The notes under the pieces are model-generated. The model was not told the DNA's origin and searched no databases. It worked only from the letters and a program-made list of their open reading frames with translations. The position numbers and the translations under genes were made by a program. A stretch of DNA of 41,067 nucleotides from Solidesulfovibrio fructosivorans JJ] (GTDB lineage Bacteria; Desulfobacterota; Desulfovibrionia; Desulfovibrionales; Desulfovibrionaceae), in NCBI RefSeq assembly GCF_000179555.1, contig NZ_AECZ01000036.1, positions 1-41,067 on the forward strand, written 5' to 3'. Positions 7,323 through 40,587 of this stretch are shown piece by piece; position 1 is the stretch's first letter; each line of letters starts with the position of its first letter.

Positions 7323-7390
7323 GGGTGCGAGAGGGGAAACCCTTTAAAAAGGGTTCTCCCCTCTCGCGCTCTCCCCTTCCCAAAGTTTTT
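7323..7390 (+). terminator. polA terminator made from a solo B-family hairpin
   Basis: The arms GCGAGAGGGG and CCCCTCTCGC enclose AAACCCTTT / AAAGGGTT, followed by GCTCTCCCCTTCCCAAAG and TTTTT on the plus strand. It is the B hairpin of the composite repeats in the opposite orientation and lies right after polA. A second copy of the right arm (GATTTCCCCTCTCGCACCC, 7461-7479) pairs with 7323-7341, so the region can also fold into a larger structure. Confidence 0.8.
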
Positions 7391-8431: not shown

Positions 8432-9520
8432 CTACAGCCCGCCCAGCCCCGCGACCAGAGCTTCGGCGTGTTCCGGCCAGGCGACGGCCAGCAGCTCCCG
8501 CTCCTCGGGCGGACAGGTCTCCATGAGCTGCGCCCCGGCTCCGGCCAACTCCTCGGCGGAAAAGGAGCCCAGAAAATCGAGCAGCCCCAGCCCGGCGTCG
8601 CCGCTGTCCGGACGCTCGCCCAGGGCCGTGGCGAAACCGGCCACAATGGACGGCACCACGGCCGTGTCGGCCAAAACGAGATCCCCCACGCCGTTGACCC
8701 GGTCCAAGCGCGCCCGCATCGTCATGTTGGCGAAAAAGGAAAGCCCGGCCAAACGCTCGGCCATGGGACCGGCTTCGGTAAAAGGCCGCGACGCTCCGTA
8801 TCCCCGCACCGTGATCAGTCTGGCCGAGACCGCGCCGTCGGCGATCCTGGCCACGAAATCCCCGGCCCCATGGTGCCACGGACCGATCGAGGCCCCGGTT
8901 TCCGTATCGTAATACCGGGTCAGAATACGCGCCGCCTCGCCGTACAGCGCCGCCGCCTCCCCAGCCGTCAACAGCCGTTCGCCGGCGTCGAAATCCCACA
9001 GCCGCACCCGGCCCGAACCGTCCTGGTGAAACTCGTGATAGCCGCCAAACCACTCCTCGAGCAAAAGCCCAAGCGCCCCCACCTTGCCATAGGCATAGGG
9101 ACACGGCAGAAACTCCGGCGTAAAACGCCCGCGTAAGGTTTCGAGGAGCCCGGCCTCGACCTCCAGACACCCCCGGCCCATTTCCGAGGCCGCCACATTG
9201 AGGCAGAACTTGGCCGCGTCGCCGTCGAAGCGCACCGTGCAACTAGCCGGATGATACAGCGCCCCATGCTTCTCGGCCCGAAGCACCACCGCTTTCGCCT
9301 CCGCCAGCCCTTCCGGCCGGCCCGAGGCGACCAGCGCCCGCATAAGCGGCGCGAAGCCCTCGCCGGAAACGAACGCCTCCAGCGCCTCGAAATAGGCCCC
9401 ATACGTGAGCCCCGTGTCGTCGCCCTCGACGGGCATGGAGGCGTGGTCGTGAGCGTCGTAGGCCATGGCCCCGTCGGGCGAGGCGATTTCCTTGATGATG
9501 CGGATGTTGTCGATGTCCAT
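8432..9520 (-). CDS. Conserved protein of unknown function
   Basis: This is a 362-residue soluble protein with no signal peptide and the codon usage of its neighbours. The start at 9520 (MDIDNIRIIKE) is chosen because the reading frame upstream runs into the 436-bp palindromic repeat and has no protein-like composition. Visible conserved-looking stretches are WFGGYHEFH near residue 185, VRLWDFDAGERLL, a histidine-aspartate cluster GPWHHGAGDFVAR near 236, and ITVRGYGASRP. These resemble the clustered polar residues of an enzyme core, and the middle part could be kinase-like, but that is speculation. It stands alone: convergent with the TPR gene, and separated from cbiA by the repeat. Confidence 0.7.
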   Translation of the reverse strand: MDIDNIRIIKEIASPDGAMAYDAHDHASMPVEGDDTGLTYGAYFEALEAFVSGEGFAPLMRALVASGRPEGLAEAKAVVLRAEKHGALYHPASCTVRFDGDAAKFCLNVAASEMGRGCLEVEAGLLETLRGRFTPEFLPCPYAYGKVGALGLLLEEWFGGYHEFHQDGSGRVRLWDFDAGERLLTAGEAAALYGEAARILTRYYDTETGASIGPWHHGAGDFVARIADGAVSARLITVRGYGASRPFTEAGPMAERLAGLSFFANMTMRARLDRVNGVGDLVLADTAVVPSIVAGFATALGERPDSGDAGLGLLDFLGSFSAEELAGAGAQLMETCPPEERELLAVAWPEHAEALVAGLGGL

Positions 9521-9548
9521 GGCGGTCGTGTGCCTTGTCTCGCTACGC

Positions 9549-9984
9549 CCAGGGGCTCCGCCCCTGGAACCCCGCCGGGGGGCTTGATGCCCCCCGGTCC
9601 CCCCTTTACCGGCTTGGGATGGCGGGTGGAGGTGTGGTTGGTGGTGCCTTGTTGCCGCAATCGGCCCGGCGGCACGAGGAGCTTCGCTCCTCGAAGCCGG
9701 ACACGATTGCGGCAACAACCGCGCCAGCGGCGAAGCGCCGCATTTCAAGAAAAATCGTACGCTCCGAATGTCGCCCTCTTGGGGCGACCGGCGTGGTGGA
9801 GGCGGGATTTGCTTGGGACGAGCTTGTCGCGAAGCGACATGCACCGTCCCGACAAATTCCGCCGCCATCTTCTCCGCACTCCGCCTTAGCGCCAACCATC
9901 CCCGCCCCCGCCCGGCCAAAGCACACCGGACGGGGGGCCGGGGGGCCCGTGGCCTCCCGGCGGGGTGCAGGGGCAGCGCCCCTG
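9549..9984 (+). repeat. 436-bp palindromic structured repeat element, copy 1
   Basis: The left end reads CCAGGGGCTCCGCCCCTGG followed by CCCGCCGGGGGGC...GCCCCCCGG. The right end read backwards gives CAGGGGCGCTGCCCCTG, then CCCGCCGGGAGGC...CCCCCCGG. The element therefore has terminal inverted repeats of about 55 bases, each made of two small hairpins. Inside, 9650-9717 is a strong hairpin with GTTGCCGCAATCG / CGATTGCGGCAAC arms. It is followed by GCCAGCGGCGAAGCGCCGCA, a GTCGCCC / GGGGCGAC hairpin, and a GGGACG / CGTCCC hairpin (9815-9851). The same modules recur in the same order, inverted, at 24104-24547. No protein-like reading frame fits it. Confidence 0.85.
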
Positions 9985-10009
9985 CTTCGCCTCGTCGCGT
10001 CCTGCTTCC

Positions 10010-11425
10010 CTACCCCCTACGCCGCGCCGCGTAGCGCCTGGCCGCCGCGACGAAGTTCGGCGCCCAGTGGGGCGCGCCCTCGGCGTGGATGTGGGTATAG
10101 GCGGCGAAGGTGTTGCCCGTCAGCAGGCCGTCGTGGCCCTCGCACATGCCCACGCCCCGCTCCATGGCCAGGGTGAAGGCTTCGGGACCGGGGAGCGGCG
10201 AGCAGTCGAGGGCCGCCTGGCAACGGGAGTAATGAAATTCGTGCCCATGGAGCAGGGTTCCGGCGGGGTGAAAGGGATTGTCCCGCACCACCCGGGCCAG
10301 GCTGTAGCCAAGTCCCTGGGGCCTGGCGCAAAGCGTGGTGGTGATGGGATACACACCGGCCATGGGGTAGGTGACGCCCCGCACCTCGAGCCCCTGGCAC
10401 AGGTACATGAACCCGCCGCACTCGGCGTAGATGGGGAGTCCCGAAGCGGAAAGGGCGCGCACCCGTTCCCGCACGACGCGATTGTCGGCCAGGGCCGCGA
10501 CCTGGGTTTCGGGAAAGCCGCCGCCGAGGTAAAGACCGTCGAGGTCGGGCCAAGGCGCCGGGTCGAGGATGCTGACGGAGACGATGCGCGCGCCGGCGCG
10601 CGTCAGCGCCTCGATATTTTCCGGATAGTAGAACCACAGGGCCGCATCGCGCACCACGCCGATGACCGGCGCGTCCGGGCCGGGCGGCGCGGGCGGCGGG
10701 GGAAGCTCCAGGTCTGGCAGCGGCGGCGCGGACTGGGCCAGGGCGACGAGCCGGTCGAGGTCCACATGTTCGCGCACGAGCGCGGCCAGACCGTCCAGGA
10801 TGGCGTCCACGGCGGCGTGCTCGCGGTTGGAGACCAGTCCCATGTGGCGCTCGGGAATGGGATTGTCGGAAATTTTGGGCAGCAGTCCCAGCACCGGCAC
10901 CCCGGCCAGGGTTTCGATGCTTTCGCGCACGATGGCCCGGTGACGCGGTCCGGCGGTACGGTTGGCCACCACGCCGGCAAGGCGCAGTCCGGGTTCGAAG
11001 CCGGCCACGCCCGCGACCAGGGCGGCGGCGGTGCGGGTCATCTTGGTGGCGTCGAGAATCAGGACGACCGGGGCGTCGAGCTGGCGGGCCAGCGCGGCGG
11101 TGGAGCAGGAGCCGGCCACGTCCATGCCGTCGAACAGGCCGCGATTGCCTTCGATGACGGCGATGTCGGCGTCTTGGGATTTTTCCAGAAAAAGGGAAGG
11201 GAGCCTTTCGGCGGGCAATAAGAAAGGGTCCAGATTGGTGGCGTCGCACCCGGCGGCAAGTCCGAGCCAAGCGGCGTCGATGTAATCCGGACCCTTTTTG
11301 AACGGACGGACGCGCAGCCCGGCGGCGGCCAGAGCCCGGCAAACACCAAGAGTCAGGATGGTCTTGCCTGCGCCCCCGGACAGCCCGGCCAGGACAAGAC
11401 GCGGGCGATCATTCACGGCGCGCAT
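10010..11425 (-). CDS. cbiA: Cobyrinate a,c-diamide synthase-type amidotransferase
   Basis: This is a 471-residue glutamine-dependent amidotransferase of the CbiA/CobB family. The N-terminal ATP-binding half starts with a P-loop (GLSGGAGKT). The C-terminal type-1 glutaminase half has the cysteine nucleophile in YAECGGFMYL and the histidine in GHEFHYS. The classical role is amidation of the a and c side chains of cobyrinate. In Desulfovibrio this gene follows dsrD, and the likely substrate is siroheme, giving the siroamide cofactor of sulfite reductase; that role is inferred from context. The start is uncertain: ATG 11425 is used, and an in-frame GTG at 11467 is possible; neither has a good ribosome site. 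The last gene of the dsr operon. Confidence 0.9.
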   Translation of the reverse strand: MRAVNDRPRLVLAGLSGGAGKTILTLGVCRALAAAGLRVRPFKKGPDYIDAAWLGLAAGCDATNLDPFLLPAERLPSLFLEKSQDADIAVIEGNRGLFDGMDVAGSCSTAALARQLDAPVVLILDATKMTRTAAALVAGVAGFEPGLRLAGVVANRTAGPRHRAIVRESIETLAGVPVLGLLPKISDNPIPERHMGLVSNREHAAVDAILDGLAALVREHVDLDRLVALAQSAPPLPDLELPPPPAPPGPDAPVIGVVRDAALWFYYPENIEALTRAGARIVSVSILDPAPWPDLDGLYLGGGFPETQVAALADNRVVRERVRALSASGLPIYAECGGFMYLCQGLEVRGVTYPMAGVYPITTTLCARPQGLGYSLARVVRDNPFHPAGTLLHGHEFHYSRCQAALDCSPLPGPEAFTLAMERGVGMCEGHDGLLTGNTFAAYTHIHAEGAPHWAPNFVAAARRYAARRRG

Positions 11426-11846: not shown

Positions 11847-13010
11847 TTAGGCCTCGATGTGCTTCGTGAACTTGAACTGCGTACTCTGGCGCCACGTGTA
11901 GTAGGCCGGATCGCGGAAGTCGTCGATGCAGTGATGCGAGAACTCGAGGTCGCACAGCTCGAAGAACTTCTCCCAGCCGATGCGCTCGGCCCATTCGCCC
12001 AGGCGCTCGTACTTGTTGGCGTCTTTCGCGTAGACCTCGACGATGTGCTTGATCATCTTGGTCAGCGTCGGCCAACGCGGCGGCTCGTTGGGGATGTAGG
12101 CCACAACGACCTTGGAGAACTTCGGCATGGAGATGCGGTTGGACACCTTGCCGCCGACCATGAGCACGATGCCGTCACCCTCGCCGGAAGCGAGCGGCAT
12201 GGCCGGGCACATGGTGTAGCAGTTGCCGCAGTACATGCAGCGCGAGGCGTTGACCGCGACGGAGTTGACCTTCTTGCCGTCGATCTCGACCTTGGTCGGC
12301 TTGATGGCGCCGGTGGGGCAGGCGGAGATGGCCAGCGGGATTTCGCAGATGTTGTCCAGGCGGTCGTGTTCGACGATCGGCGGCTTGCGGTGGATGCCGA
12401 CGATGCCGATGTCGGAGCAGTGCACGGCGCCGCACATGTTCAGGCAGCAGGCCAGGGAGATGCGGACCATGGCCGGCAGGGTCATGGACTGGAAGTACTC
12501 GAACATTTCGTCCATGACGGCCTTGACCGGGCCGGAGGCGTCGGTGGCCGGGGTGTGGCAGTGCACATAGCCCTGGGTGTGGACGATGTTGGACACGCAG
12601 GCGCCGGTGCCGCCGATGGGGAACTTGTAGCTGCCGCCGGCGAACTTGCGGGACTCGAGGTCGGCGATGAGGCCGTTCAAGGCCTCTTCGGTCTCGACCA
12701 TGAACTCCACGTTGTTACGCGTGGTAAAGCGCAGGTGGCCGCCGCAGTGCTTGTCGGCGATCTCGCAGATCTCACGGACGTGGGTGACGCTCATGAGGCG
12801 GGCGCCGCCGACACGCACGGTGTAGACCACGTCGCCGGAGAGCGCGGCGTGCTTGAGCACGCCGGGCTTGACGATCTCGTGGTAGTCCCACTGGCCTTTA
12901 TTCTTCTTGATGACCGCCGGATAGAACTCCTCGTAATGCCGAGGGCCGATATCCGTGATGCGGCCTTCCATGGGTTTGTCGGGATTGTATCCGGAAGAGA
13001 TGAATGCCAT
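11847..13010 (-). CDS. dsrB: Dissimilatory sulfite reductase beta subunit
   Basis: This is a 387-residue beta subunit of the cytoplasmic alpha2beta2 siroheme sulfite reductase that reduces sulfite in respiration with DsrC. The sulfite/nitrite reductase core includes [13 protein letters not shown]. The siroheme-[4Fe-4S] cysteines are in [16 protein letters not shown] ferredoxin-like insert has CPTGAIKP and [17 protein letters not shown] for a second [4Fe-4S] cluster. The length matches Desulfovibrio DsrB. The ATG has GGGAGGA upstream. It follows dsrA by 16 bases and is cotranscribed with it. No key residue appears to be missing. Confidence 0.99.
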
Positions 13011-14543: not shown

Positions 14544-14670
14544 CGGGAAAACGGCCTTTGGCCGGTTCCGCGCGCATCCAGGACCCATAGCATTTTGCCC
14601 CGGTCGTTGCAAAGTCCTTTTGTCCCCGGCCGGCCTCTCGCCCCCCTTGCCAACGGCCCAAAATTCCCCC

Positions 14671-15336
14671 ATGCACGTCGCCATGCCCGACGCCGCCCCT
14701 TCCTGCCGCCGCTGCGGGGCCTGCTGCCGCGACGGCGGCCCGGCCCTGCATGTCCGGGACCTGCCCCTTCTCGGGGACGGCGTCCTTGCCCTTGCCGACC
14801 TCATGACCCTGCGCCGCGGGGAATACGTCACGGACAACGTGGCCGGCACGATCGGCCCCTCCCCGGTGGAACTGGTCAAGATCCGCCCGGTTCCGGGCGG
14901 CCGGACCTGCCGGTTCTACCTGGCCGGCCCGCCCGGAGCCTGCGCCATCCACGAACGCCGCCCGGCCCAGTGCCGCGTCCTCTTCTGCGAAGCCCCGCGG
15001 GCTCTGGCCGCCATGTACCGGACGGAACTGCTCACCCGGCGCGACATCCTGGGAGCGCAAAGTCCCCTGGCCGAGTTGTGCGCCCACCACGAAGCCGAAA
15101 CCGGGCTGCTCGACCTGGCGCGACGGTGCCGGCAAGCCCTGGCCGGGGACCGCGACGCCCGCGAGGCCGTCATCCGGGCCGACCGTCTCGACGCCGCCCT
15201 GCGCGACCTCGTGCCCGAACGCGCCGGCGTCCCGCCCGAGGTCCTGCCCTTTCTTTTCGGCCGCCCCCTCCGGCAGGCCCTGCCCGCCTGCCGCGCCGCC
15301 CTGGCCGCCCTTTACAACGACGGCTCCAGCGCCTAA
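14671..15336 (+). CDS. YkgJ-family cysteine-cluster protein
   Basis: This is a protein of about 221 residues with the YkgJ (CxxCGACC) signature: CRRCGACCRDGG near residue 11, followed by LHVRDLPLL, then a second cysteine group in GACAIHERRPAQCRVLFCEAP. Proteins of this family bind a metal or Fe-S cluster through these cysteines; the biochemical role is unknown in most cases. The second half is alpha-helical and alanine-arginine rich. The start is uncertain: ATGs at 14671 and 14683 are both possible and neither has a strong ribosome site; both start just before the cysteine motif. It is divergent from dsrA, which may be coincidence or may mean it shares control with sulfite reduction. Confidence 0.85.
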   Translation: MHVAMPDAAPSCRRCGACCRDGGPALHVRDLPLLGDGVLALADLMTLRRGEYVTDNVAGTIGPSPVELVKIRPVPGGRTCRFYLAGPPGACAIHERRPAQCRVLFCEAPRALAAMYRTELLTRRDILGAQSPLAELCAHHEAETGLLDLARRCRQALAGDRDAREAVIRADRLDAALRDLVPERAGVPPEVLPFLFGRPLRQALPACRAALAALYNDGSSA

Positions 15337-16042: not shown

Positions 16043-16214
16043 GGGGGGAAACTTTGTCTTACGAAAAGTTTCCCCCCAGGCCCCCCTTCCAAAGACTTCA
16101 ATAATCGCACCGGGTATGGTTGTCGCATCCCTTCTATTATAAAATTTAGGAAGGGGAGAGCGCGAGAGGGGAGAACCCTTTCTAAAGGGTTTCCCCTCTC
16201 GCATGCTTCCTTCT
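16043..16214 (+). repeat. Composite two-hairpin intergenic repeat, copy 2 (A+B)
   Basis: Hairpin A (16043-16104: GGGGGGAAACTTT / AAAAGTTTCCCCCC, then CCAAAGACTTC), an AT-rich spacer, and hairpin B (from AAAATTTAGGAAGGGG to CCCCTCTCGCATGCTTCC) are in the same order and orientation as copy 1. Both flanking genes are on the plus strand. Confidence 0.88.
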
Positions 16215-23578: not shown

Positions 23579-24094
23579 ATGCCCCGAAACGTGGAGATCA
23601 AGGCCAAGATCGACAGCGTCGACGCCATGCTGTCCCTGGCGGCAAAACTGGCGGATGCCGGGCCGACGGAACTTCTCCAGGACGATACGTTTTTTCCCTG
23701 CCCAAACGGCCGGCTCAAACTGCGCGCCTTTCCGGACGGAACCGGTGAGCTGATCTTCTACCAACGCCCGGACAGCCAGGGCCCCAAGACGTCCGAATAC
23801 ACCATCTCACCGACCCACGCACCCGACACCCTGCGCCAAACCCTGACCGCGGCCTACGGACAGGCCGGACGCGTGCGCAAAAAACGCACCCTCTTTCTCA
23901 TCGGACGCACACGCCTGCACCTGGACGCAGTGGAAGGACTCGGCGATTTCCTGGAACTGGAAGTCGTCCTCGAACCAACGGAATCCGCCACAGCCGGCGA
24001 AGCGACCGCAAAGGCCCTGCTCGTACAACTCGGCATCAGCCAGGAACAACTCGTGGCCAAGGCCTACGTCGATCTACTGGCGGGAGGAGGGTAG
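23579..24094 (+). CDS. CYTH-domain protein (class IV adenylate cyclase-like)
   Basis: This is a 171-residue protein of the CYTH (CyaB/thiamine triphosphatase) superfamily. The N-terminal strand has the charged signature NVEIKAKI (ExKxK form). Further tunnel-lining strands are GRLKLRAFPDGTGELIFYQR, RVRKKRTLFLIGRTRLHLD and GLGDFLELEVVLE. CYTH enzymes act on triphosphates with divalent metals; members of this subgroup are usually annotated as adenylate cyclases, but the substrate (ATP, ThTP or inorganic triphosphate) cannot be told from sequence. GGAG precedes the ATG. A palindromic repeat follows 10 bases after the stop. Confidence 0.88.
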   Translation: MPRNVEIKAKIDSVDAMLSLAAKLADAGPTELLQDDTFFPCPNGRLKLRAFPDGTGELIFYQRPDSQGPKTSEYTISPTHAPDTLRQTLTAAYGQAGRVRKKRTLFLIGRTRLHLDAVEGLGDFLELEVVLEPTESATAGEATAKALLVQLGISQEQLVAKAYVDLLAGGG

Positions 24095-24103
24095 ACGGGA
24101 GGA

Positions 24104-24547
24104 GGGTGGGGCGCTGCCCCACACCCCGGCGGGGGGCTTGATGCCCCCCGCGCCCCCCTACTCGCTCTGCCGGGTGGAGGCGAGGTTGGCCAGACGCTCA
24201 GGCGGATGCCTGGGGAGGGTCCGGAATTTTTCCTGACGATGCCGCCGCTACGCGGCAGGCGCGTCAGGAAAAATTCCGGACCCCCACGCCGTCGCCCCTT
24301 CGGGGCGAACTTTTAAAGAAAACTCTTGCTTTTAAATGCGGCGTTTCGCCGCTGGCGTGGTTGCCGCCGCAATCGTGTCCGGCGTCGAGGCGCAAAGCGC
24401 CTCGTGTCGCCGGGCCGATTGCGGCGGCAAGATCAAACCGCCTCGCCGTCAACCTGCCGTCGTCCCACCCGGCAAAGCGTAAAGGGGGGACCGGGGGGCA
24501 TCAAGCCCCCCGGCGAAGGGGTCCAGGGGAGGCAGAGCCTCCCCTGG
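24104..24547 (-). repeat. 444-bp palindromic structured repeat element, copy 2 (inverted)
   Basis: Read on the minus strand it gives the same series as copy 1: CCAGGGGAGGC...GCCTCCCCTGG, GCCGGGGGGCTTGATGCCCC, the long hairpin with TTGCCGCCGCAATCGG and GATTGCGGCGGCAA arms, GCCAGCGGCGAAACGCCGCA, and TCGCCCC / GGGGCGA. It then has a longer variable hairpin (arms GTCCGGAATTTTTCCTGACG and its complement, 24211-24283) and the terminal inverted repeat ending at 24104. It fills the gap between two convergent genes. Confidence 0.85.
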
Positions 24548-24575: not shown

Positions 24576-25799
24576 CTAATGGCTGGCGTAATACGCTTCG
24601 GCGAACAGCTTGCCGGAAGCGGCGATGAGCGGCCCGAGGTCGTGTTCTTCGAGAACGTCCCAGCCGATGAAGCGCACGGAAGCCCCGTCGGGGAGCGGCG
24701 AGGACGCGGCGGGGCTTGTCGGGGGAATGAGGGCTCCGGAGGCGATGGCGGCGGTTTCCGGGCCGAGAAAAAAGTCGACCAGGGGGGCCAGGGCTTCGGC
24801 GGCTGTTTGTTTGACCATGACGAACAGCGGCGAGACGAGGCCGCCGTCGTCGGGCCAGATGATTTCCACGTCGTCCTGGCGCGGGGCGGCGTTGGCGAAG
24901 AAGTAGGGCATGACGCCGATGGGCGGCGGGTTGGCCCCGGGGCCGGGGCGGAAGATCTGGGACGGGTGGGTGTCGCAGATCATGGCCCGGCCCAGGGCGG
25001 CCAGGGCCTCGGGACCGTGCTTGAGGCGGATGTTTAGGAGCAGGGTCGAGTCGCCGGCGGTTTCCGGCGGACCGCACAGGCCGATCCTGCCGACGTAGGC
25101 GGGGTCCAGCAGGTCGTCGAAGGAGCGCGGCACCGGAAGGTCGCCGAGGCGCGAGCGCACGGCCACGATGACCAGCGGGTTGACGCCGTAGATGCGGCAG
25201 ATGCCGCGCGGATCGGCCAGTTTAGCGTCGGCCAGGGCCGGGTGCATATCCTGGGGAAGGGGCGCAAACAGGTCGCCGGTGGTGAAGCGGTCGCGAAAGC
25301 TTTTGGACAAAAAGCCGTTGAGCCCGGAGGAGACGATCAGGTCCGGGACCTCGGCCGGATCGGTCAGGGAGCTGGCCAAGTCGTTCAGCGTATGCTTGCC
25401 GCAGCTGTCCATGAAGATGCGCGGCCAGGGGGCGTCCGGGCCGAGGCGTTCCTTAAGGTTTTCAAGCGCGATGCCCATGGGGGCCTTGAGCGGACAGGGC
25501 AGGCTCAAAAACATGCGCAGGCCCGGCCCGGCGGCGTTGTAACCGTCGCAGAAAAGCGGCTGCATGCCGCTTGGGGCGGTGCGGTCCTGGCCGGCCAGGG
25601 CCTCGAGAAAAAGTTTTCCGGACAGGCCGTGGAGGGCGAGCAAGGTGCGCATGCTCAGAAACGGCGCGGCGGAGGCCAGAAATTCGGCATCGGCCACAGC
25701 GGCCACGCCCTGGGCGGCCAGGACGTCGCGGCCGGCGGGATGATGGGCCAAAAAACGGGTGACGGGCAGATCGAGGGAGGTTTCCTCCAAAACGGACAT
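24576..25799 (-). CDS. Signal-less ABC substrate-binding-like protein
   Basis: This 407-residue protein looks like a periplasmic solute-binding protein of the iron/anion type (MGIALENLKERLG, DLIVSSGLNGFLSKSFRDRF, YGVNPLVIVAVRSRL, SFDDLLDPAYVGRIGLCGPP). However, it has no signal peptide, so it should be cytoplasmic. Instead, residues 10-65 form a small helical domain with LPVTRFLAHHPAGRDVLAAQ that resembles DUF1858. The same PAGRD...QG pattern starts the ABC ATPase encoded just upstream. ATG 25799 has GGAG upstream and lies 7 bases after the ATPase stop. It is the last gene of a three-gene operon without a membrane permease. The ligand is unknown. Confidence 0.8.
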   Translation of the reverse strand: MSVLEETSLDLPVTRFLAHHPAGRDVLAAQGVAAVADAEFLASAAPFLSMRTLLALHGLSGKLFLEALAGQDRTAPSGMQPLFCDGYNAAGPGLRMFLSLPCPLKAPMGIALENLKERLGPDAPWPRIFMDSCGKHTLNDLASSLTDPAEVPDLIVSSGLNGFLSKSFRDRFTTGDLFAPLPQDMHPALADAKLADPRGICRIYGVNPLVIVAVRSRLGDLPVPRSFDDLLDPAYVGRIGLCGPPETAGDSTLLLNIRLKHGPEALAALGRAMICDTHPSQIFRPGPGANPPPIGVMPYFFANAAPRQDDVEIIWPDDGGLVSPLFVMVKQTAAEALAPLVDFFLGPETAAIASGALIPPTSPAASSPLPDGASVRFIGWDVLEEHDLGPLIAASGKLFAEAYYASH

Positions 25800-29892: not shown

Positions 29893-29966
29893 ACTTTTGG
29901 GAAAGGGAGAGCGCGAGAGGGGCCACAGCCCTTTTAAAAGGGTTTCCCCTCCCGCGCCTTCCCCCC
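29893..29966 (-). repeat. Solo B-family hairpin after ahcY
   Basis: GAAAGGGAGAGCGCGAGAGGGG pairs with CCCCTCCCGCGCCTTCCCCC around CAGCCC...GGGTT, in the same orientation as the B half of the composite repeats, but there is no A half. It starts 9 bases after the ahcY stop and probably serves as its terminator. Confidence 0.8.
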
Positions 29967-29974
29967 AACATTCC

Positions 29975-31379
<1,405 letters not shown>

Positions 31380-31399
<20 letters not shown>

Positions 31400-32348
31400 G
31401 TTCGTCTCCTTTGGCGGATGTGTTTTGGAGGGGCCGGGCGACAAGGCGCGCCACGACAAGCCCCTTGTTGGCGGGATGTTCGGAATACGCTTCCAAATCG
31501 AAGCCGGCCCGGGCAAACCAGGCGGCGAATTTCTCCCGGGAAAAGCCCAGCCAGCGGTCGCCGAAACGGCGGCGCATGGCCTCGTCCCCGTGGGGGGTGA
31601 AGTCGATGACCGCCAGCCGGCCCTTTGGCGCAAGCACGCGCCGGGCCTCGGCCAGGGCGGCGGCCGGATCGGGCAGGTGATGCAGCGTCAGGCAGATGAC
31701 GGCGAAATCGGCCTCGCCGTCGGCCATGGGCAGGTGCTCGAGTTCGCCCATGCGCATCCCGACCGGCAAACCGGCCGTGCGGCGCTCGGCCAGGGAGAGC
31801 ATGGAAGGGGAACTGTCGACGCCGATGACGGTCGCGGCGCGCTCGGCCAAAACGGGCAGCATCTCCCCCGGGCCGCAGCCGAGATCGGCGGCCAGGGACA
31901 CGCGCCCGGGCATGACCTCGCGCACCAGCGCGGCCGGGTCCACCGGCCCCAGCACCTCGCGGCGAAGCCGGGCCCAGTCCGGGGCGATGGCGTTGAAAAA
32001 GCGCCGCGTCTCCTGGCGGCGTTCGCGCAGCACCGCGTCCACGGCGGCCAGATCGGCCTCGGGCCCGGCCACGGCCAGCCATGGGGCCAGCGCCGTCAAA
32101 AAATCCTTTTGCGGTCCGCCCCCGGCCAGGCTGTAAAAAGTCCAGGCCCCGTCCCGACGGCTCGCAAGCAGCCCGCAACCGACCAGGATGCCGAGATGGC
32201 GCGAAATGCGCGACTGGCCCATGCCGAGCGCGGCCACGATCTCGCCCACGGACAGCTCATGGCGGCCCAGGATGCGGATCAGGCGCAACCGGGTCTCGTC
32301 GGCCAGGGCCTTGAACCAGGGCAGCGGTGTTTCGACGTTTTTCAGCAT
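31380..32348 (-). CDS. sahR: ArsR-methyltransferase fusion regulator, SahR-type
   Basis: This is a 322-residue protein with an N-terminal ArsR winged helix ([40 protein letters not shown]) and a C-terminal class I SAM-methyltransferase fold ([51 protein letters not shown]) that in SahR is thought to sense S-adenosylhomocysteine. SahR is the SAH-responsive regulator of ahcY and methionine-cycle genes in Proteobacteria including Desulfovibrionales (family knowledge). The overlap with ahcY supports this identity. The ATG at 32348 is chosen so that the palindromic operator lies upstream of the coding region; a GTG at 32372 would put the operator inside the gene. Confidence 0.88.
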
Positions 32349-35472: not shown

Positions 35473-35640
35473 GGGGGGAAACCTTTCTGAAGAAAGGTTT
35501 CCCCCCAAGCCCCCTTCCAAAGACTTTTGACGATAACGAATGAGTACTCGTTACTCATTTATATTATTAAAAATTTAGGAAGGGGAGAGCGCGAGAGGGG
35601 ACAACCCTTTTTAAAGGGTTGCCCCTCTCGCATTCTCTTC
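35473..35640 (+). repeat. Composite two-hairpin intergenic repeat, copy 3 (A+B)
   Basis: Hairpin A (35473-35529: GGGGGGAAACCTTTCT / AGAAAGGTTTCCCCCC, then CCAAAGACTTTT), a spacer with the inverted repeat AACGAATGAGTA / CTCGTTACTCATT, and hairpin B (AAAAATTTAGGAAGGGG to CCCCTCTCGCATTCTC). Here the element lies between convergent genes, so A can end the queuosine-salvage transcript and B the chemoreceptor transcript. Confidence 0.9.
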
Positions 35641-40495: not shown

Positions 40496-40587
40496 CGCAC
40501 TGAAAAAGGCAAACCCTTCGAAAGAAGGGGACGCAAAGCCACGGGCCTACGTCCCGCAAGGGATACGGTAGCCGGGCCGCCAATGCG
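40496..40587 (+). promoter_or_regulatory. c-di-GMP-I (GEMM-I) riboswitch
   Basis: The conserved GEMM core is plain: GGCAAACCC, a stem with CGAAAG tetraloop (CCCTTCGAAAGAAGGGG), the linker GACGCAAAGCC, the second stem starting CGGGCCTA with loop CCCGCAAGGG, and the receptor part ACGGTAGCCGGG. CGCA (40496-40499) and TGCG (40584-40587) can close the outer stem. The guanine of GGCAAA that contacts the ligand in c-di-GMP-selective members seems retained. Downstream, CCTCC (40594-40598) can pair with the GGAGG at 40625-40629, so control at translation initiation is plausible; no terminator hairpin with T-run is seen in the expression platform. Confidence 0.93.

Follow-up and report, generated by a model that had tools for sequence, protein, structure and literature searches.

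Large modular palindromic elements of REP/BIME-like character in intergenic spaces of Solidesulfovibrio

What is known of palindromic repeats in bacteria mostly concerns short REPs, which are linked to RAYT enzymes. As summarised in a published account, a REP unit measures 20–40 bp, and REPs lie near the 3′ ends of genes, in convergent as well as co-directional spaces (PMC3733652). Summary descriptions of REPs present them as palindromes tagged with GTAG or CGTC, which stand in opposite orientation as dimers, often as heterodimers (PMC3733652, PMC2817692); BIMEs are described there as binding gyrase and IHF (PMC2817692). No account of repeats like those described below was found for Solidesulfovibrio or Desulfovibrio in the literature searched, at the level of abstracts, and PMC3733652 makes no mention of Desulfovibrio.

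The element considered here lies in a 41,067-nucleotide stretch of DNA (the window) from Solidesulfovibrio fructosivorans, whose genome is labelled G000; the sister genome is labelled G004. The modules of the element are designated T, A, hp1, hp2 and B.

Architecture of the element and of its second copy

Direct reading and folding showed the 436-bp stretch at 9549–9984 to be a nested palindrome with the left-to-right order T, linker, A, hp1 segment, AT-rich centre, hp2, B, linker and inverted T. The left T (9549–9604, + strand), delimited by sequence reading, BLAST and the module map, consists of two GC-rich hairpins and is about 30 bp from the start-codon side of the called gene 8432–9520 (−). 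The long hairpin A (9649–9718, +; sequence reading, alignment and covariation) has a 15-bp outer stem, a 6-bp middle stem, an 8-bp tip stem and two unequal internal loops. A constant segment (9719–9743, +; reading and cross-genome comparison) contains the small hairpin hp1, GCGGCGAAGCGCCGC at 9727–9741, and is followed by the fast-evolving AT-rich centre (9742–9769, no strand assigned; reading and orthologue identities). Beyond the centre are the small hairpin hp2 (9770–9788, −; reading, pair counts and covariation) and the long hairpin B (9798–9866, −; reading, module map, pair counts and covariation), which opposes A. The inverted right T (9932–9984, −; BLAST, module map and gene calls) is 27 bp from the stop codon of the called gene 10010–11425 (−).

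The arms 9550–9603 and 9932–9984 are inverted repeats with 80% identity, in agreement with the inverted termini claimed in the initial annotation. The outer boundary is not sharp: extra small GC hairpins are stacked beyond T in some copies, the stacking varies, and some halves have no such inverted ends. The central long hairpin of that annotation is A, which is indeed self-complementary; the second large hairpin, B, had been overlooked. A and B share a common plan of long stem, internal loop, short stem, internal loop, tip stem, small loop and small hairpin. The covariance model of A (R1, 95 positions; the A hairpin itself has 70 nt) also detects B at a lower score (51 bits), and the B model (R2, 99 positions) detects A (46 bits); these cross-matches suggest that A and B are sister units, although GC-rich hairpins also cross-match on reverse strands. 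Folded as RNA, the whole element has a z of −12.6, with none of 100 shuffles equally low.

The second copy (24104–24547, −; reading, BLAST, gene calls and folding) consists of T, a B variant (hairpin at 24217–24283), hp2, centre, hp1, A (hairpin at 24361–24430) and T, and is situated between the convergent called genes 23579–24094 (+) and 24576–25799 (−). Folded as DNA, it has a z of −19.1, and again none of 100 shuffles is equally low. It had been reported as a copy with the same order; it is the same element, lying on the opposite strand and having a diverged B stem. With copy 2 reversed, the alignment confirms the compensated stem change described earlier, TTGTTGCCGC/GCGGCAACAA here versus TTGCCGCCGC/GCGGCGGCAA in copy 2; the change in the loop-side stem is likewise paired, CGAGGAGC/GCTCCTCG here versus CGAGGCGC/GCGCCTCG in copy 2.

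Copies, pairing and position relative to genes

The genome of S. fructosivorans contains at least 47 A halves and at least 52 B halves (R1 and R2, rows with E below about 1e-13), both numbers being lower bounds because the best 53 (A) and 52 (B) candidates per genome were scored. BLAST within the same genome found full and half copies among the best 40 candidates of each search. In a multi-genome covariance search with stricter filters, both models match 13 of 14 Solidesulfovibrio genomes at E ≤ 1e-4; the lone genome of the genus with no match, G012, is an assembly of about 490 contigs. At the same threshold, neither model matches any of 65 genomes outside the genus (33 of the same family, 32 of the same order). 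Numbers of A and B model matches vary strongly among species. An exact search for 23 bases of the constant segment across 84,980 species (one genome per species) yielded 39 stretches, excluding the window's own record, and 38 of them are in records titled Solidesulfovibrio or Desulfovibrio sp. The remaining stretch (L166, 3933–3955) comes from a bin titled Selenomonadales, where it lies on a contig of 4 kb, and is perhaps contamination.

T by itself has matches in further genera of Desulfovibrionaceae as well, the T double hairpin being a repeat in its own right. Among plasmids, T ends alone match in two Pseudoroseomonas records; no match to the element was found in the phage sequences searched. 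Next to one A half of G001 (L121, 1660–1720), G occurs in stretches about 40 long, which may reflect an error of sequencing or assembly. Loci L031 and L057–L059, which duplicate other loci, were left out.

At the loci of G000 and G004, which share many sites, the large hairpins stand face to face about the AT-rich centre. The facing pairs in the loci examined comprise 54 A–B, 21 B–C and 3 A–C pairs, with no A–A or B–B pair among the loci examined in these two genomes; two A–B rows scored as tandem are truncated A fragments. Half elements and mixed elements are common. A opposes B in other species too, as on contig 15 of G003 (A at 31187–31283, +; B at 31316–31411, −) and on contig 8 of G001. 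C is a third hairpin type, and its model also detects a more abundant second family, in which D opposes E: 30 of the 31 facing pairs found with this model are D–E and one is E–C, according to reading of the sequences. In the window, members of the D–E family (about 160–220 bp) are present at 1043–1203, 16044–16200 and 35473–35629, and lone C-model matches at 7329–7390 and 29895–29953.

The positions of the elements relative to genes refer to genes called by a purpose-written simple caller, unvalidated against annotation. The A/B clusters sit between called genes, with one (L093) overlapped by a called gene. Clusters with a called gene on both sides number 89 (45 in G000 and 44 in G004, two sets made dependent by shared sites), and 55 of them are convergent, 34 co-directional and none divergent; L050 and L053, without a neighbour on at least one side, are outside this number. 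Of the G004 gaps of at least 150 bp, 0/44 with A/B are divergent versus 66/153 without modules in the same regions (p = 9e-10). Most of the T modules detected are within about 60 bp of the end of a called gene, which means that an element between convergent genes occupies the whole interval between the two stop codons. Of 12 co-directional B–C elements, 10 have B turned toward the upstream gene's end (8 of 10 after two orthologous pairs are merged). Replication-strand bias was not detected (12 versus 9, p = 0.66), and a replication-strand role was rejected on that count.

As for C/D/E modules, the A/B-centred regions of G004 contain 61 gaps bearing them, none of which is divergent. Another 20 regions of G004, placed between known copies, have them in 11/20 convergent, 18/84 co-directional and 3/28 divergent gaps of at least 100 bp; absence from divergent spaces thus fails as a rule for C/D/E.

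Conservation of the hairpins and their possible roles

The existence of a mobile or structured element had been tied to the presence of further copies and of covariation between them; copies are found in dozens, and covariation is present. In 30 A sequences, standard pairs occupy 97.5% of pair cells versus 94.2% in shuffles, with 8 double-changed pairs versus 2.6; in 29 B sequences the values are 95.9% versus 90.6%, and 12 versus 3.6. None of 500 shuffles reaches the observed A and B values, save one shuffle for one A measure. The A stems of 17 sequences from 13 genomes differ widely in sequence and keep their pairing, and the hp1 sequence is identical in 16 of these 17. A comparison of 50 orthologous module pairs of G000 and G004, with flanks of median 95% identity, gave 1678 stem pairs: 1605 are the same, 51 are changed on one side, 20 show double Watson–Crick changes and two show other double changes. 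Four of the module pairs are not clean orthologues, because the L078 element they involve joins the flanks of two G000 copies; without them, a hand count leaves 18 double and 48 one-sided changes.

In DNA palindromes, copying from arm to arm also yields paired changes. The many double changes at low divergence may in part be due to such copying or to exchange between copies, so that covariation alone is no proof of selection; the covariation noticed at the outset is real, and the step from it to selection on the folded form was too quick. Purifying selection on the hairpins is the likeliest reading and is best argued from their slow change relative to the linkers at the same sites. At 16 orthologous sites of the two genomes, identity is 96.5% for A, 93.3% for B and 74.8% for the centre, versus 80.5% and 78.1% for the 60-bp linkers. 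Mean A distances are 0.0705 and 0.0732 within genomes, 0.0714 between genomes and 0.031 between orthologues; the respective values for B are 0.1058 and 0.0951, 0.1011 and 0.066. Since mean distances within genomes equal those between them and orthologues are closer, the distances give no indication that copies are homogenised inside either genome, and such homogenisation is unsupported as the cause of hairpin likeness. In G004, the closest copy, ties included, is the orthologue for 7 of 16 A and for 5 of 16 B modules; with the orthologue so seldom nearest, some exchange between copies is possible.

The reading proposed here, held with middling confidence, is that of a Solidesulfovibrio-specific family of giant modular REP/BIME-like elements, in which the paired unlike halves are gene-end units acting at transcript 3′ ends. 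Each half would represent such a unit, in the order stop codon, T hairpins, long hairpin (A or B), small hairpin and AT-rich centre; two unlike halves placed face to face would close two converging genes or fill the space between successive genes. Transcripts reading through past the stop codon would fold the hairpins one after another, and the folded hairpins would block 3′–5′ exonucleases and help RNA polymerase to pause or stop, probably with Rho, since there is no U-tract. Back-to-back halves would also keep convergent transcription apart. The halves may differ because equal halves would form a perfect palindrome of great length, and such palindromes are unstable. Multiplication of the family, by some enzyme, would predate the separation of the two sister species, and the family would now be inherited and decaying.

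Several results weaken the gene-end reading. A terminator-like hairpin with a T tail was not found in 9400–10100 (0 versus 0.4 expected). Nor is there a trade-off with ordinary terminators, which stand at 8/69 gene ends with A/B, 14/99 with C/D/E and 29/202 without modules; replacement of ordinary terminators by the elements was rejected, there being no complementary distribution, even in convergent gaps alone. In the direction from gene to centre there are 19 G–T versus 43 A–C cells, or 15 versus 22 distinct events (p = 0.32 for events), in a comparison that omits 31 A–C cells of one B-tip pair, a loop variant; the mismatch counts thus show no G–U excess and give no support for sense RNA as the selected form. 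Convergent gaps are fold-rich in G004 (p = 0.0001), and mildly so in G043 (p = 0.02), a genome of another family that has no modules; in G011, which belongs to the genus, they are not clearly so (p = 0.38). A general long-stem or low-folding-energy measure fails as a mark of the genus for the same reason. The gene-end reading is helped by locus L088 of G004 (14652–14800), in the place of L006 of G000, where T and a short perfect B-like hairpin are followed by TTTTTT; this decayed B hairpin reads as an ordinary terminator.

An extended version of the gene-end reading is more doubtful. In it, paired unlike hairpins, with stems that vary between species yet remain paired and with the nearly invariant small hairpin beside them as a possible protein handle, would constitute a RAYT-independent, genus-wide system and a common two-way end of convergent genes, spread and maintained by a novel enzyme and a novel binding factor.

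The main functional rival, itself rather unlikely, assigns the role to DNA: the hairpins, readable without transcription, would extrude or would bind protein (gyrase, a nucleoid protein or another factor) at convergent supercoils. Palindromes on both strands, the lack of a G–U preference, the many copies between convergent genes and the conserved unequal internal loops of A all accord with this proposal, as does the binding of gyrase and IHF by BIMEs in the summary of PMC2817692. However, about 40% of the copies (34/89) are in co-directional gaps, replication-strand bias (12 versus 9) is lacking, and the binding is putative.

The history of the copies bears on the two proposals that follow. 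Fourteen G000 sites were unmatched among the first G004 regions, and 13 of them were then located by a joined query; L020 could not be located in G004, and L050 lay outside the set queried. Five of the 13 carry the element in G004 after all (L046, L051, L054, L055 and L056), and eight are wholly or partly without it (L002, L003, L010, L014, L017, L027, L028 and L049). All eight altered sites keep element-like hairpins with ragged breaks, as judged by reading the sequences, and other DNA follows the remnant at L002; neither a target duplication nor a clean empty site was apparent at these eight. The direction of change is taken from the remnants, in a comparison of two genomes without an outgroup. 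In the pairs L026/L081 and L042/L068, one member has most of an A hairpin that is missing from the other. The L078 element (12273–12723 in G004) has flanks corresponding to those of two different G000 copies, L015 and L040, and the locus is likely a recombination or rearrangement point at repeats. The transposase search covered PF01797 (Y1_Tnp) in six genomes: there is one match in G000, some in three of the other five genomes, and none in G004 and G011, both of which carry elements. The remnants at the altered sites, together with the lack of any Y1 match in G004 and G011, suggest that the compared copies have been inherited and are in decay.

It is also improbable that the family is a REP-type selfish repeat or relic, serving as a substrate for HUH (Y1) transposases in trans and tolerated at gene ends with no benefit to the host. 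Hairpins far more conserved than linkers would be unexpected for dead relics, the GTAG and CGTC tags are not conserved, and G004 and G011 have elements and no Y1_Tnp match; on the other side are the many copies, the dimer grammar, the extragenic placement as in REPs, the Y1_Tnp matches in G000 and three other genomes, and copy numbers that differ strongly between species.

A MITE-like non-autonomous transposon, suggested initially, would be a 436-bp unit moved via its inverted ends by a classical transposase, and these ends and the roughly 50 copies agree with it; it was nevertheless rejected as very improbable, since the make-up of the ends varies, half and mixed elements are common, and the eight altered sites have remnants and neither target duplication nor a clean empty site. 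The other early suggestion, a family of structured noncoding RNA genes acting in trans, is the least credible, for all its strong folding and covariation: 9400–10100 contains no promoter-like site, the element has no Rfam match beyond chance, two unlike halves are combined as modules, and there is no G–U excess. No Rfam family matches the element at gathering score, and the 12 weak matches at E up to 10, the best having an E of 0.017, are all far below gathering scores. The sole Rfam gathering-score match in the window is a c-di-GMP-I riboswitch at 40498–40584 (88.7 bits).

Comparison with described systems

An attC-type hairpin, suggested by the GTTGCC/GGCAAC feet, was dropped, as the attC core does not fit. 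BOX, ERIC and RUP are modular intergenic palindromes of other bacteria. By description, the elements are like them in their mosaic build, stable folds and intergenic position; they differ in that the hosts are unrelated. Two-way (bidirectional) transcription terminators occur between convergent genes. The elements likewise have hairpins for two converging genes, and the decayed B hairpin of L088 has a T run; the intact element, in contrast, has no T tail and is far longer.

With the two structure models, annotation could name intergenic spaces that are now blank. The family offers a natural test of whether such repeats function as structures of gene ends, and it prompts the question of what spread them.

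The likeness to REPs and BIMEs is that of extragenic, many-copy palindromic units in opposite orientation, often heterodimers, and the placement of the elements equals that reported for REPs, with few in divergent spaces, as summarised in PMC3733652. The unit here, however, measures 70 nt (hairpin) or about 95 nt (module), compared with the 20–40 bp of a REP in the same summary; T hairpins stand outside it, and in the searches made the family is confined to a single genus. Nor is there a conserved GTAG or CGTC tag: near the outer foot, GTAG is present in 5/70 A and 3/80 B modules, and CGTC in 7/70 A and 0/80 B modules. At the foot of hp2, CGTCGCC is found in 37/82 cases. GACG, the reverse of the CGTC tag, occurs at A in 39/70 A modules of G000 and G004, which is too loose for a tag; GACGTT-like letters often precede the A hairpin, for example at L120, L122, L123 and L127. 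A cognate RAYT (Y1, PF01797) is not a constant companion of the elements, G004 and G011 carrying them without a match.

The giant REP/BIME-type unit of the initial annotation remains the nearest kind. Because unit size, tag and RAYT were tested and do not agree with those of REPs, the element is not filed as a REP; it is REP/BIME-like. Beside the short REPs, it is a large two-part version, common in a genome without a Y1 match, that combines a strict pairing rule with sequence constraint and placement at gene ends.
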